DNA from: Flavobacteriales bacterium
GTDB lineage: Bacteria > Bacteroidota > Bacteroidia > Flavobacteriales > TMED113
Assembly (NCBI GenBank): GCA_002718035.1
Contig: PBCX01000011.1
Location: forward strand, 142,064-186,885
Direction of reading: 5' to 3'
DNA length: 44,822 bases
The notes beneath the pieces were generated by a model, which saw only the letters and a list, made by a program, of their open reading frames with translations, was not told the origin of the DNA and did no database searches. Position 1 is the stretch's first letter. Each line of letters begins with the position of its first letter. The position numbers and the translations under genes are program-made. This document shows, piece after piece, positions 4,143 through 8,429 of this stretch.

Positions 4143-5198
4143 CTAATTTCTAAATTCACTTAATATATTTTCTTTTTTTTGCCTTTTTTTCCATCTTTCT
4201 TTAGCATACTCTTGCATATCAACAATCTCATCATTTTCATCAGTAATTTCCAAACCTAGCAAAGTCTCAACTACATCTTCCATTGTAACAACACCATCTA
4301 GTCCGCCATATTCATCAAGAACAATAGCAATATGCTCTTTATTTTCAACAAGTTGGTCCCAAAGATTTAATAATGTTACGTTATTTGGAATCTTTAAAAC
4401 TTCACGCTTAAAACTTTTAATTAATAAATTATTTTTTTCTTTTTTTGACAATTCTTCTAAAATATCTTGTAGGAGAATATACCCAGTAATTTTTTCATTT
4501 TGAATTGAAAATGTTGGAATTCTAGAGAAATTTAAATACTTACTTTGATTTTTAAAATCTTCTAAAGAAATATTTTCATCAACAGATTTAACAACAACTC
4601 TAGGTGTCATAATTTGAGTAACTTTTATTTTCTGAAGCTTTAATATATTTTGTATTATTTTATTTTCTTTTTCTGAAAAAACACCTTCATCTACACCAAT
4701 ATTCGCCAATGCTGCTATTTCTTCTCTACTTGTTGTATCCTCTTTTTTTTCCTTAGAAATAATATCCATTATTTTTGTAGAAAATATGACTAGTGGGTAA
4801 GTTAAAAATAACATTATTTTAATTATATGATATGTTACTTTCGACAAAGTCCTCCAATATCTCGCCCCCATTGTTTTGGGAATTATTTCTGTAATTACAA
4901 GAATTAAAATTGTTAGTATAACCGAAACAAGACCCAAAGAAGTATCTCCCCAAATCTTTACAGCTTGAGCGCCAACTCCTGCTGCACCAATTGTATGAGC
5001 TATTGTATTTAAAGAAAGTATAGCAGATAACGGCTTATCAATATTTGATTTTAGATCTAAAAAAGAATTTGCCCAATTTTCTTTTTCTTTAATTGTTGTT
5101 AAATATGTCTGAGGAGTAGATAATAAAACAGACTCTGTTAAAGAACATAAAAAAGAAACAATTAATGCAAGAAACAAATATGCTAATAATACACCCAT
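4143..5198 (-). CDS. CNNM/DUF21-CBS membrane protein (hemolysin C / CorC-related)
   Basis: 351 residues. The N-terminal half is a CNNM (DUF21) transmembrane domain with hydrophobic segments near residues 1-25, 55-75, 85-110 and 125-145, plus the typical SLTESVLLSTP and LSLNTIAHTIGAAGVGAQA. Then come EEIAALANIGVDEGVFSEKE and a pair of CBS domains (about 190-320), with TPRVVVKSVDE and AIVLDEYGGLDGVVTMEDVVE. Relatives are implicated in magnesium or other divalent-cation transport. The C-terminal CorC_HlyC domain of longer relatives is missing; the protein ends in a charged tail soon after the second CBS, which is normal for short flavobacterial forms. The tRNA-Val(GAC) starts one base after its stop codon. 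A 62-base gap separates it from crtZ upstream. Confidence 0.88.
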   Translation of the reverse strand: MGVLLAYLFLALIVSFLCSLTESVLLSTPQTYLTTIKEKENWANSFLDLKSNIDKPLSAILSLNTIAHTIGAAGVGAQAVKIWGDTSLGLVSVILTILILVITEIIPKTMGARYWRTLSKVTYHIIKIMLFLTYPLVIFSTKIMDIISKEKKEDTTSREEIAALANIGVDEGVFSEKENKIIQNILKLQKIKVTQIMTPRVVVKSVDENISLEDFKNQSKYLNFSRIPTFSIQNEKITGYILLQDILEELSKKEKNNLLIKSFKREVLKIPNNVTLLNLWDQLVENKEHIAIVLDEYGGLDGVVTMEDVVETLLGLEITDENDEIVDMQEYAKERWKKRQKKENILSEFRN

Positions 5199-5260: not shown

Positions 5261-5713
5261 TTATGAATTAAACCAATATTTTATTGGGAAAAATAACATA
5301 CCAAAATTTTCACCATTTTTTTTACCAATATTTTTATGATGAATTTTGTGCGCTCTTCTCAAACCATTTAAATACTTGGATTTAGTATTTCTAAATATTT
5401 TTGATCTTTGATGAATAAATAAATCATGTATAACAAAGTATGCAAATCCATACAAAGTAATACCTAACCCAACCCAAAACTCCCAACTGTAATCTGGCAA
5501 ACCCAATATAATTGTAGTTATACCTGGGACAGCAAATATGAAAAAAAAGCTATCATTTTTTTCAAATATTCGATTTTTCATAGGAAGATGGTGGTCTTTA
5601 TGTAAATACCATAGAAAACCATGCATTATATATTTGTGGGTAAACCATGCAACGAACTCCATAAACAAAAACGAAATGATAGTTATAATTATATTTAATA
5701 AAAAATCAGGCAT
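5261..5713 (-). CDS. crtZ: Beta-carotene 3-hydroxylase (CrtZ)
   Basis: A membrane di-iron hydroxylase of the fatty acid hydroxylase superfamily that adds 3-OH groups to beta-carotene rings, giving zeaxanthin. All His clusters are present: HKYIMH (26-31), HKDHH (38-42), HDLFIH (96-101) and HKIHH (122-126), with hydrophobic helices between them. It is 150 residues from the ATG at 5711-5713; a TTG directly before it, adjacent to the previous gene's stop TAA, would add one residue, but the ATG is the simpler start. It is the last gene of the crtI-crtB-unknown-crtZ operon. No lycopene cyclase (crtY), needed to make its substrate, is found in this window. Confidence 0.93.
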   Translation of the reverse strand: MPDFLLNIIITIISFLFMEFVAWFTHKYIMHGFLWYLHKDHHLPMKNRIFEKNDSFFFIFAVPGITTIILGLPDYSWEFWVGLGITLYGFAYFVIHDLFIHQRSKIFRNTKSKYLNGLRRAHKIHHKNIGKKNGENFGMLFFPIKYWFNS

Positions 5714-5716
5714 CAA

Positions 5717-6124
5717 TTATTTTAATACTTTTTTTTGAAAATCATCTCCATACTTACTTATATATAAACTATCCTTAATTAAGTTTCGATTATAATTTAA
5801 AAAAACAGGTGCATTCTTCTGTAAACTATAACGCAACCACCTACATTCAACAAAGTTAGGATTTTTATTAATAACATCATCTAACTTTTTACGTCCCTTT
5901 CTAAAAAAAGAAATCTTAGAAATTGGAGAATTAGCATATTTGGCCTTCAAAATTAAAGCTGCCCCTGAGTAAGCCTCACACTTTTTACTAATCTTTCCTT
6001 CACAAAAATCAATTAAAGAATCACACGAAACTTCTTGAATTACAGCTCTTTCAAAAATTTTTCTAAATTCGGTTTCTTGGGAATATATTAATGTAGATAA
6101 AATCGAAAAAAATAAAAGCCTCAT
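5717..6124 (-). CDS. Small secreted protein of unknown function in the carotenoid operon
   Basis: 135 residues with a probable signal peptide (MRLLFFSILSTLIYSQ). The mature part is about 120 residues, mostly helical in character, with three Cys (SCDSL, DFCEG, KKCEA) plus one in VECRWLRYSLQ. The segment KLDDVINKNPNFVECRWLRYSLQ looks like a tetratricopeptide-type helical repeat. Its ATG overlaps the crtB stop (ATGA) and its TAA directly abuts crtZ, so it is made together with the carotenoid enzymes. I recall similar small proteins between crtB and crtZ in other flavobacteria, but no experimental function. A structural or accessory role in carotenoid handling at the envelope is a guess from context. 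Confidence 0.8.
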   Translation of the reverse strand: MRLLFFSILSTLIYSQETEFRKIFERAVIQEVSCDSLIDFCEGKISKKCEAYSGAALILKAKYANSPISKISFFRKGRKKLDDVINKNPNFVECRWLRYSLQKNAPVFLNYNRNLIKDSLYISKYGDDFQKKVLK

Positions 6125-6960
6125 ATTGCACCAAATTTATTTAAAACAAAGGCCTTAATCATTAAAACAATTTTTTTAAAATTAGAAATTCTAATACGTT
6201 TTTCTAATATAACTTTAAAATCTAAAGATTTAATTTTATTAAATAAATTAAGGTAATATATATAAGCTATAAAAACTCCTAACTTAGAGCCTTCTGGCAA
6301 CATTTTGATTCCTAAATAACCTTTATCAAAATCTTTTTTAATGTCAGACTCAATTTCTTTTTTTTGACTGGTTGTGAAATTACTTAAATCAATATTTGGA
6401 AAATATGTTCTTCCTAAATCTTTATAGTCAGCTCTTATATCTCTTAAAAAATTTATTTTTTGAAAAGCTGATCCTAAACTTTTAGCATATGGGTAAAGTT
6501 TCATGTAAAGATTTTTATCCCCTTCAACAAAAACTTTAAGACACATTAACCCAATTACCTCAGCAGAACCTAAAATATATTTTTCGTACTCTTTTTGATC
6601 ATATATTTTGTTTACTTCTAAGTCCATTTTCATACTATGAATAAATTGATGTATTAAAATATGATCAATTTCATACTTATTTACAACATTTTGAAAACTA
6701 TTTAAAATAGGATTCATGCTTACTCCTTCTTCAATGGAATCAAAACAATTTTTTTCAAATCTATTTAAAATTTTAGATTTATTATATCCATGAAAACCAT
6801 CAACAATTTCATCAGCAAATCTTACAAATCCGTAAATACTATAAATAGGTGAATGGAATTTTTTTGATAACATTTTTATACCAAATGAAAAGCTAGTACT
6901 ATAACTTTTAGTTGTTAACTCACTACACTTTTTAGAAAGATTATCGAATTTTGATTTCAT
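6121..6960 (-). CDS. crtB: Phytoene synthase (CrtB)
   Basis: Condenses two geranylgeranyl diphosphates to phytoene, the first committed carotenoid step. 279 residues, normal for bacterial CrtB. Both Asp-rich, Mg-diphosphate-binding motifs are present: RFADEIVDGF (D50/E51...D54) and FLRDIRADYKDLGRTYFP (D174, D178). The squalene/phytoene synthase hallmarks YSTSFSFG (about 20-27) and LGSAFQKINFLRDI are also clear. The start overlaps the crtI stop by four bases (ATGA), and its own stop overlaps the next gene's start in the same way, giving a tightly coupled operon. Confidence 0.95.
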   Translation of the reverse strand: MKSKFDNLSKKCSELTTKSYSTSFSFGIKMLSKKFHSPIYSIYGFVRFADEIVDGFHGYNKSKILNRFEKNCFDSIEEGVSMNPILNSFQNVVNKYEIDHILIHQFIHSMKMDLEVNKIYDQKEYEKYILGSAEVIGLMCLKVFVEGDKNLYMKLYPYAKSLGSAFQKINFLRDIRADYKDLGRTYFPNIDLSNFTTSQKKEIESDIKKDFDKGYLGIKMLPEGSKLGVFIAYIYYLNLFNKIKSLDFKVILEKRIRISNFKKIVLMIKAFVLNKFGAI

Positions 6961-8429
6961 GATAACGGAAAATTTTCACTAATATGTTTTGCAACAATTT
7001 GACCTGAAATTAAAGACGGAGGCACACCTGGTCCAGGGACAGTTAATTGCCCAGTATAAAATAAATTAGGAAGTTTTTTATTTATAATACTTGGTTTAAA
7101 ATTAGCAGTTTGAAAAAGTGTATTTGCTAGTCCATATGCATTTCCTTTATAAGCATTATAGTCATGTATAAAATCATTTATACAATAATCTTTTTTATAC
7201 TCAATAAAATCTGAAATATTTTCTCCGCAATAATCCTCCAACCTCTTAAGAATTATATTAAAGTAATGATCTCTTAAATCTTTACTATCATCTAATCCAG
7301 GGGTTATTGGTATGAGTAAGAAAATATTTTCCTTATTTTGAGGTGCAGTAAATGGATCGGTCTTTGACGGGCAACAAGCATAAAATAAAGGATTTTTTGG
7401 CCAAATTTTTTTGGAATAAACTTCATCAATATGTTGTTCTATATTTGCATCAAAGAATAAATTATGGTGTATTATTTTTTTTAACTTTTTATTTATTCCT
7501 AAATAAAACAATAAACATGAAGGCGAGAAAGTTTTTTTTGACCAATAATTTTCTGAGTAATTTCTAAAATTTTTAGGTAATAAATTATTCTCAATGTGAT
7601 GATAATCAGCCGATCCAATTAGAATATCTGTTAAATATGATTTTGTTTTTGTTTTCACTCCATAAACCTTACTGTCCTTAATTTCAATTTCTTCAACATT
7701 TTGTCCTAAATTAAAAGAAACACCCAAATCAACACATAATTTTCCCATTCCTTTTATTACCTGATGAAAACCTCCCATTGGATAAAAAGTTCCTTGAATT
7801 AAACCAGAATACGCCATTAAACTATAAAGTGCTGGAGTATCTTTAGGCGCTGTCCCTAAAAATAAAACTGGAAACTCTAATAAGGCTCTTAACTTAGGAT
7901 GTTTAAAATACTTTGCAACGTGTGATTTATATGATGATAAAATTTGAAGTCTAAATACATTTTTAAATAAATCTAGTTTACAGAACTCCATCCACGAAAT
8001 TCCAGGTTGAAAAACGACTGAGCTCATTCCAAAACTATACTTAAATTCAGCTTCTTTCATGAATTTTTTGAGCATTTTTGATGAACCAGGTTCTATTTCA
8101 TTGAATAAAGATTCTAACTTTTCAAATTGAGCTGGAACAACTAAATTTTTTTGATCTTCGAAAATTATTTGAAAACCAGGATCTAATTTTAACAATTCAT
8201 AATAATCTTTTGTTGATTTTTGAAATTGATTGAAAAATTGATCAAAAACATCCGGCATCCAATACCAACTTGGGCCCATATCAAAGTTATAGCCTTTCTT
8301 GTTAAATTGTCTAGCCCTTCCACCTATTTGATTATGCTTTTCTATAACACGGACATTATAACCTTTACTAGCTAAAATAGCCGCAGAACTTAAACCTGCA
8401 AATCCGCTTCCAATAATTATTACGTTCAT
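6957..8429 (-). CDS. crtI: Phytoene desaturase (CrtI)
   Basis: FAD-dependent desaturase/isomerase converting phytoene to lycopene. 490 residues, the family's usual size. The N-terminal Rossmann fold reads VIIGSGFAGLSSAAILASKG (5-24) with EKHNQIGGRAR after it. The substrate-pocket signature FDMGPSWYWMPDVFD is typical of bacterial CrtI. The C-terminal FAD signature LPNLFYTGQLTVPGPGVPPS (about 455-474) is intact. It is the first gene of the crt operon. Only about 30 bases separate its ATG from the T-run of the terminator that closes tRNA-Val(UAC), so a normal promoter can hardly fit unless it overlaps the tRNA or terminator. Confidence 0.95.
   Translation of the reverse strand: MNVIIIGSGFAGLSSAAILASKGYNVRVIEKHNQIGGRARQFNKKGYNFDMGPSWYWMPDVFDQFFNQFQKSTKDYYELLKLDPGFQIIFEDQKNLVVPAQFEKLESLFNEIEPGSSKMLKKFMKEAEFKYSFGMSSVVFQPGISWMEFCKLDLFKNVFRLQILSSYKSHVAKYFKHPKLRALLEFPVLFLGTAPKDTPALYSLMAYSGLIQGTFYPMGGFHQVIKGMGKLCVDLGVSFNLGQNVEEIEIKDSKVYGVKTKTKSYLTDILIGSADYHHIENNLLPKNFRNYSENYWSKKTFSPSCLLFYLGINKKLKKIIHHNLFFDANIEQHIDEVYSKKIWPKNPLFYACCPSKTDPFTAPQNKENIFLLIPITPGLDDSKDLRDHYFNIILKRLEDYCGENISDFIEYKKDYCINDFIHDYNAYKGNAYGLANTLFQTANFKPSIINKKLPNLFYTGQLTVPGPGVPPSLISGQIVAKHISENFPLS

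Follow-up and report, generated by a model that had tools for sequence, protein, structure and literature searches.

X, as the product of the gene between crtB and crtZ is called here, is proposed to be exported, TPR-like and a dedicated helper for polyene pigments, carotenoids and flexirubins alike, a reading to which we give a slightly better than even chance. The reading is favoured by the adjacency of X to crtB, by its fusion to CrtB and by its presence in flexirubin clusters. The first-pass annotation of this DNA had suggested an undescribed carotenoid accessory factor. The crtB adjacency, the TPR-like model and the fusion in three genomes support that suggestion, which is here widened to polyene pigments in general. 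In the open-licence literature, no paper was found that names the X family or links its carotenoid and flexirubin copies, and older cluster papers may list X as hypothetical.

X in the carotenoid operon

The window, meaning the whole stretch of DNA that was analysed (44,822 nucleotides from a Flavobacteriales bacterium), carries the genes crtI-crtB-X-crtZ in this order on the minus strand, and every adjacent pair overlaps or nearly touches (Table 1). The plus strand of the X region contains many stop codons. The crtB frame ends at 6121, so that its overlap with X is exactly four nucleotides (ATGA), as had been annotated. Translational coupling of crtB and X is a probable consequence of this arrangement. 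The description of X as stoichiometrically tied to the carotenoid enzymes was overstated, since a 4-nt overlap suggests translational coupling and not equal protein amounts. X was also said to touch crtZ. The stop codon of X (TAA) is followed by TTG and then by ATG; the TTG start of the mechanical ORF list does abut X, but the start of crtZ is, from the codons present, most likely the ATG, 3 nt past the X stop. The PF04116 protein encoded behind X is taken by us to be CrtZ.

A GldE/CorC-like CBS membrane protein is encoded about 60 nt behind crtZ on the same strand (4143-5198, minus). It matched the CNNM family PF01595, with TIGR03520 below its cut-off, and the gene may be on one transcript with crtZ. 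A microbial rhodopsin is present in the window's own genome (L194, G000:C1:30064-30732). No CarR-type lycopene cyclase was found in that genome, which is 86.8% complete.

Table 1. Positions of X, its parts and its operon neighbours in the window, and of one gene recurring in other carotenoid operons
Feature	Position	Strand	Basis
X, 135-aa protein of no named family, predicted to be exported, helical and TPR-like	5717..6124	-	ORF with ATG start; no family match; AlphaFold2; 64-row alignment
Signal-like N-terminus of X, MRLLFFSILSTLIYS	6080..6124	-	By eye and hydrophobicity
Residues 93-118, the core of X with the highest conservation; candidate interaction or binding site	5771..5848	-	Invariant columns of 64-row alignment; helices H92-104 and H115-125 in model
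ATGA overlap, crtB stop/X start	6121..6124	-	Sequence; recurs in 41/69 crtB-X pairs elsewhere
crtB, phytoene synthase	6121..6960	-	PF00494, E 1.8e-38
crtI, phytoene desaturase	6957..8429	-	NF058655, 690.8 bits against a cut-off of 640
crtZ, carotene hydroxylase (presumed name)	5261..5713	-	PF04116 (fatty acid hydroxylase), E 2.6e-13; ATG at 5713
Polyketide cyclase/lipid transport-like gene in other loci	L090 4273-4734; L091 4840-5310; L101; L155 6430-6894; L164 6394-6861; L168 6385-6843		

X as an unnamed sequence family

The signal peptide annotated earlier for X (MRLLFFSILSTLIYS, ending in LIYS before QE) was recognised again by eye and by hydrophobicity, without a dedicated predictor; beyond this short hydrophobic start X is otherwise soluble. 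At the threshold used, a hydrophobic N-terminal stretch was present in 79 of 84 carotenoid-type rows and in 96 of 110 X rows overall, three fusion rows having been trimmed beforehand. A few Cytophagales relatives (L128, L147 and L149), located away from pigment genes, have no signal sequence.

No Pfam family matched X at E<=1, and therefore no TPR, LolA or enzyme model. NCBIfam gave just two matches, both at E ~0.1, far under cut-off and meaningless; the earlier statement that X has no enzyme motif is borne out by these searches. X matched none of the CrtB, CrtI, CrtZ, CruF or lycopene cyclase models of Pfam and NCBIfam, and LolA models matched neither X nor appeared among the families listed for its relatives. 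When 64 relatives were scanned singly, no common Pfam or NCBIfam family emerged; weak TPR matches were limited to TPR_11 in two relatives and TPR_8 in two (best E 6.2e-4). A profile of the 64 relatives found no PDB sequence at E<=1. On these comparisons, X is proposed here as a family without an existing name.

Six residues (E93, R95, R98, Q102, P106 and D118) are invariant in all 64 alignment rows, including the window, and give the signature E-x-R-x-x-R-x3-Q-x3-P plus an Asp. Conservation of this kind could be read as catalysis, such as the isomerisation or processing of an intermediate in pigment synthesis, via the conserved charged residues, as five of the six (E93, R95, R98, Q102 and D118) are charged or polar and the mean column identity is only 35%. 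We consider this improbable, because X matched no enzyme family, carotenoid operons without X are common, and we know of no chemical step that carotenoid and flexirubin synthesis have in common.

X had been annotated as a Cys-containing protein. Four Cys are indeed present (34, 41, 49 and 94), but they are not conserved: a Cys occupies position 34 in 16 of 63 rows and position 41 in 10 of 64, and positions 49 and 94 in just one row of 64 each, the window itself. A disulfide or other Cys-based function of X was rejected for this reason.

Predicted structure of X

The structure prediction that had been suggested as a check of a TPR fold was carried out. The AlphaFold2 model of X was all-helical, with seven helices (pLDDT 90.1, pTM 0.81), and that of a longer Pedobacter relative was also all-helical (pLDDT 91.6). 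Both models had fold neighbours that were largely TPR and 14-3-3 chains, with Z up to 10.5 for X and 11.3 for the longer relative, a range common for helical proteins. No PDB chain was matched by Foldseek at E<=0.001 with either model. The predicted fold can be called TPR-like, and no more than that.

The first Foldseek match for X was BstC (7t1s), merely at E 0.22, and BstC was outside the top 50 for the longer model. Neighbours of the longer model included the haem-binding, TPR-like HusA (6bqs, Z 10.0) and TatT (3u64, Z 9.8 over 152 residues), the latter level with many others. The occurrence of BstC and HusA, both TPR-like proteins of hydrophobic ligands, among the fold neighbours of the models would fit a pigment helper, with no ligand data on X. 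In the model, the six invariant residues are placed on helices 92-104 and 115-125 and on the intervening loop. That this site is a binding site is plausible, again without ligand data.

Distribution of X in the order

Of 60 related genomes, 22 proved to contain X in a protein search. When a profile was run against 196 genomes of the order, 78 matches in 71 genomes were obtained; CrtB, sought in the same genomes, was found in 131. The same set was searched for the FabZ-like dehydratase of a flexirubin-type cluster, and the 50 rows with E no higher than 7e-14 were retained. Twenty-seven of the 78 X matches follow crtB immediately on its strand (gap 0-39 nt), and 46 come immediately after the FabZ-like dehydratase (gap 8-108 nt); of the five located elsewhere, one (L076) adjoins DarA/DarB-like genes. 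The crtB-adjacent copies came from 17 genera in 8 families. Flexirubin-type copies came from nine genera in two families, and a single genus (g12) contributed 25 of the 46 genomes. Both kinds occurred together in four genomes. The first-pass annotation would have regarded homologues lying mostly away from carotenoid genes as a refutation, and the counts at crtB and in flexirubin-type loci formally meet this description. Flexirubin-type clusters are polyene pigment loci too, so the accessory-factor claim widens rather than falls.

No crtB-adjacent X was detected in 104 of the 131 crtB genomes of the order sample, and no X at all in 63. Presence of X was scored among the best 19 candidates per genome in this sample (best 12 in the phylum sample described below) and is therefore at least that stated; both samples are rich in near relatives. 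Carotenoids are made without X in many crtB genomes, so X is accessory.

Two other relationships were tried and dropped. A link to rhodopsin antenna pigments gained no support: rhodopsin was present in 12 of the 27 genomes with crtB-adjacent X and in 32 of the 104 crtB genomes lacking such an X (Fisher p 0.25). A crtB-adjacent X occurred in 4 of 43 crtB genomes with a flexirubin X and in 23 of 88 without one (p 0.037). Replacement of one X kind by the other was not retained as a reading, as this value is weak and not corrected for relatedness.

X in flexirubin-type clusters

X was directly behind the dehydratase in all 46 genomes of the order sample with a FabZ-like dehydratase at E<=1.8e-35. 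Only the FabZ neighbour was recorded for 43 of the 46 flexirubin-type matches, and full readings were made for L035, L039 and L040. LolA-like and MMPL-like genes were present in these three clusters; family searches on L035 gave LolA PF03548, and MMPL with HpnN/BstA-like scores below cut-off. Four further loci (L076, L182, L183 and L184) have X next to DarA/DarB-like genes, which encode enzymes for the resorcinol half of flexirubin. The labels DarA, Idi, IspH, ketosynthases, deacetylase and LolB2 are names that we presume; the L183 copy of DarA had no NCBIfam match at 1e-5.

In a tree of 110 X sequences, rooted at the midpoint, the flexirubin-type sequences (6 of the 46 FabZ-type and all four known Dar-type) grouped together with one orphan, with support 83/84. 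This group sits inside a background of carotenoid-type X, and its support falls short of what the program requires for a firm branch; the Dar-type sequences alone formed a firm clade (100/99). The midpoint root and the wider spread of the carotenoid type would suggest that carotenoid-type X came first. With flexirubin X placed among carotenoid X at 83/84, the role of X cannot depend on CrtB alone.

According to the published work, which for every paper cited in this text was available to us only in part, flexirubin is located in the outer membrane and carotenoids in the inner membrane (PMC5932025), and flexirubin is exported "by yet unknown mechanisms" (PMC3992019). The LolA/LolB-like and MMPL genes of the flexirubin cluster have been proposed as pigment movers (PMC3992019, PMC11885536, PMC5932025), LolA2/LolB2 of the flexirubin locus being proposed transport candidates (PMC11885536). 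An aryl polyene cluster was reported to include an unannotated group, 08XF1: NA, in the part of PMC5932025 that was accessible. This eggNOG group could be X.

Neighbours of X in carotenoid operons

The gene-neighbourhood search proposed with the first annotation showed that throughout the phylum relatives lie behind crtB and mostly precede crtZ. The loci described here are the best 80 of 117 relatives from a collection scan with the carotenoid-type alignment, which leans towards crtB neighbours. With one exception these were labelled as Bacteroidota, including Pedobacter, Mucilaginibacter, Sphingobacterium, Chryseobacterium, Crocinitomix, Salinimicrobium, Flexithrix and many MAGs. The exception (L096) was a MAG labelled Euryarchaeota archaeon NAT68 with a flavobacterial crtI-crtB-X-crtZ operon, and this MAG is probably mis-binned.

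Among these best 80 of 117, X was directly behind crtB in 69. CrtZ was the next gene after X in 18 of the 69, the next but one in 33 and further away in 4; in 14 it was off the stretch or unrecognised. That the adjacency of crtB and X exceeds chance rests on its recurrence across the order sample (17 genera, 8 families) and on the overlap of exactly 4 nt in 41 of the 69 pairs. L173, counted outside the 69, likewise has crtB immediately ahead of X, the two ORFs sharing a longer overlap. X was beside an IspH-like gene followed by CrtZ in L157 and L171, and beside CrtZ in L163. No carotenoid gene was beside X among the genes read in L128, L133, L144, L147, L149, L161 and L165. In genome G021 (L038/L137), the X frame is broken by a TAA and the adjacent crtB and crtZ are open; judged from this frame, X is degraded or mis-sequenced there.

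The position between crtB and crtZ bears on the possibility that X senses light or regulates the operon. In Chryseobacterium lacus, a hypothetical gene at this position, RS06200, was light-induced together with the crt genes, and its product was proposed to act like CarA/LitR, so far as the accessible text of PMC7064467 goes. Co-induction is however to be expected of any operon gene, and X is predicted to be exported, with no DNA-binding or chromophore domain found in it. Moreover, RS06200 shares its position with X but may be either X or the SRPBCC-like gene that also occurs at that place. We regard a sensory or regulatory role as improbable.

Two other genes were noted in these operons. A lipocalin gene is located behind the lycopene cyclase in carotenoid operons of Chryseobacterium and Sphingobacterium (L155 7960-8598, L164 7928-8566 and L168 7891-8556). 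The L155 copy matched PF08212 at E 6.7e-40, and the copies in L164 and L168 were identified by sequence. It is possible that this lipocalin is another pigment- or lipid-binding envelope protein. A polyketide cyclase/lipid transport-like protein of about 155 aa also recurs in carotenoid operons (Table 1), the L155 protein matching PF03364 at E 3.6e-4, below the cut-off.

X across the phylum and its fusion to CrtB

In 296 genomes of the phylum, 62 X matches were found in 58 genomes, and CrtB was searched in the same set. By coordinates, 26 of the 62 were directly behind a strong CrtB match. Three others were fused to CrtB, 3 were behind a CruF-CrtB gene, 3 were beside CrtI/lycopene cyclase only, 18 were beside FabZ, 3 were beside DarA/DarB, 3 were in LolA_like operons and 3 were elsewhere. 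One of the last three was weak (E 1e-4), and its neighbourhood was not read. The tally over neighbourhoods placed 56 of the 62 matches within pigment loci. It is very doubtful that X is a general envelope TPR protein merely riding along in pigment operons, even though three of the 62 phylum matches and seven of the best 80 of 117 loci were outside recognised pigment loci and some relatives have no signal; against these stand the 56 matches in pigment loci and the independent placements of X behind crtB, beside FabZ, DarA or CrtI/lycopene cyclase, and by fusion.

One open frame of 810-853 aa comprises, in this order, PF04240 (CruF-like), PF00494 (CrtB) and X in three genomes of different families (L174, L175 and L176). 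Between CrtB and X, a hydrophobic stretch and small residues were seen by eye (ATFA/T, MTMA/QP and LAA/QP), which suggests, without a prediction, that fused X may retain something like its own signal. The nearest tree neighbours of the fusions, L177 and L178, have X as a separate gene directly behind a CruF-CrtB gene. No CruF homologue was reported in Rhodothermus marinus, at least in the available part of PMC5822342, and the missing hydratase of this species may be the CruF-like domain fused to CrtB.

The fusion is equally consistent with a different role, and this was the main rival explanation considered: that X is an assembly or scaffold protein which holds the membrane-bound enzymes of pigment synthesis together as one complex from the periplasmic side. 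TPR-like surfaces commonly bind proteins, and the 4-nt coupling to crtB and the TPR-like model would suit a scaffold as the CrtB fusion does. It is difficult, however, to point to an enzyme partner common to both pathways, as flexirubin X is beside the dehydratase or DarA/DarB with no crtB there, and many crtB operons are without X. A scaffold remains credible but unlikely.

The genes for more remote X-like TPR proteins (L180, L181 and L198) keep a conserved arrangement with those for a LolA_like protein, an ABC ATPase and a permease of the FtsX/MacB type. By its gene content, this set is an uncharacterised Lol-like operon. If the relationship holds, these remote proteins in operons with FtsX/MacB and LolA_like genes would favour the helper role proposed for X.

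Proposed role of X

The helper reading is developed as follows, each step being an inference. X would cross the inner membrane, at or in which CrtB, CrtI and CrtZ act, and contact the pathway from the periplasmic side. It would act not on an enzyme but on what both pathways share, a rigid polyene synthesised at the inner membrane, and would receive or shield this rigid and very hydrophobic molecule as it leaves the membrane enzymes. Contact might be made by the E-x-R-x-x-R-x3-Q-x3-P and Asp site on the helical surface. X may then help to place the polyene in the envelope, spanning the inner membrane or passed on to the outer membrane. In flexirubin clusters X would work beside the LolA-like and MMPL-type exporter genes, and in carotenoid operons it is usually the sole gene of this kind. 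Since the two pigments differ in location, flexirubins being placed in the outer membrane and carotenoids in the inner one in the accessible portion of PMC5932025, a single export step for both is not given, and X might orient or buffer carotenoids rather than export them. Pigment placement is the likeliest mechanism, inferred without phenotype, ligand or transport data.

The weak fold matches, the crtB genomes without X and the signal-less Cytophagales relatives speak against the helper role, and the ligand, phenotype and localisation of X are unknown. A more specific form of it would make X the founder of a family dedicated to handling polyenes. Such a protein, a TPR-like carrier or receptor in the periplasm, would have arisen with CrtB, to which some lineages still have it fused, would take carotenoids from the site of the inner-membrane enzymes and would have entered flexirubin clusters by a single recruitment, there to serve aryl polyenes. 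We put this forward only tentatively, and it is more probably wrong than right in this full form.

If it is true, one family serves two chemically unrelated pigments that are alike only in their rod-like polyene shape. X is a further candidate for how polyene pigments reach and settle in a given membrane. It is the sole candidate seen here that links the isoprenoid (carotenoid) and non-isoprenoid (flexirubin) pathways, and the CrtB fusion is a physical clue. X might also be relevant when carotenoid or flexirubin pathways are moved to other hosts, where it is left out.

Comparison with known systems

As modelled, X would share with the proteins of the Pfam TPR clan an all-helical hairpin arrangement, and its best fold neighbours were largely TPR chains. 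It differs from them in that no TPR model matched it and in having its own invariant signature and a fixed pigment context. LolA2/LolB2, as described in the available part of PMC11885536, and X would be envelope proteins from the same kind of cluster. LolA and LolB are beta-structured, whereas X is predicted to be helical and is also found in carotenoid operons, usually without LolA2/LolB2. In the CruF-CrtB fusions of Rhodothermus-like genomes (L177, L178 and L197) X is the next gene, and in L174-L176 it is the C-terminal domain; the fusion proteins are enzymes, to which X adds a helical domain of unknown role.

BstC of Methylococcus capsulatus is a TPR-like, sterol-binding, outer-membrane-associated protein encoded in an operon for sterol synthesis and transport, according to the accessible text of PMC10942540. 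BstC and X would both be exported, all-helical, TPR-like proteins encoded with genes for the synthesis of a hydrophobic lipid, accompanied by transport genes in the case of BstC (PMC10942540, partial text). BstC is longer (230 aa against 135), was matched at E 0.22 only and has no sequence match to X. By analogy, BstC and HusA are leads on how X might work and not evidence of family membership. As an exported helper of TPR-like type, X would fall within a known kind; what is unusual is its reach, a single family without a name in two pigment pathways.
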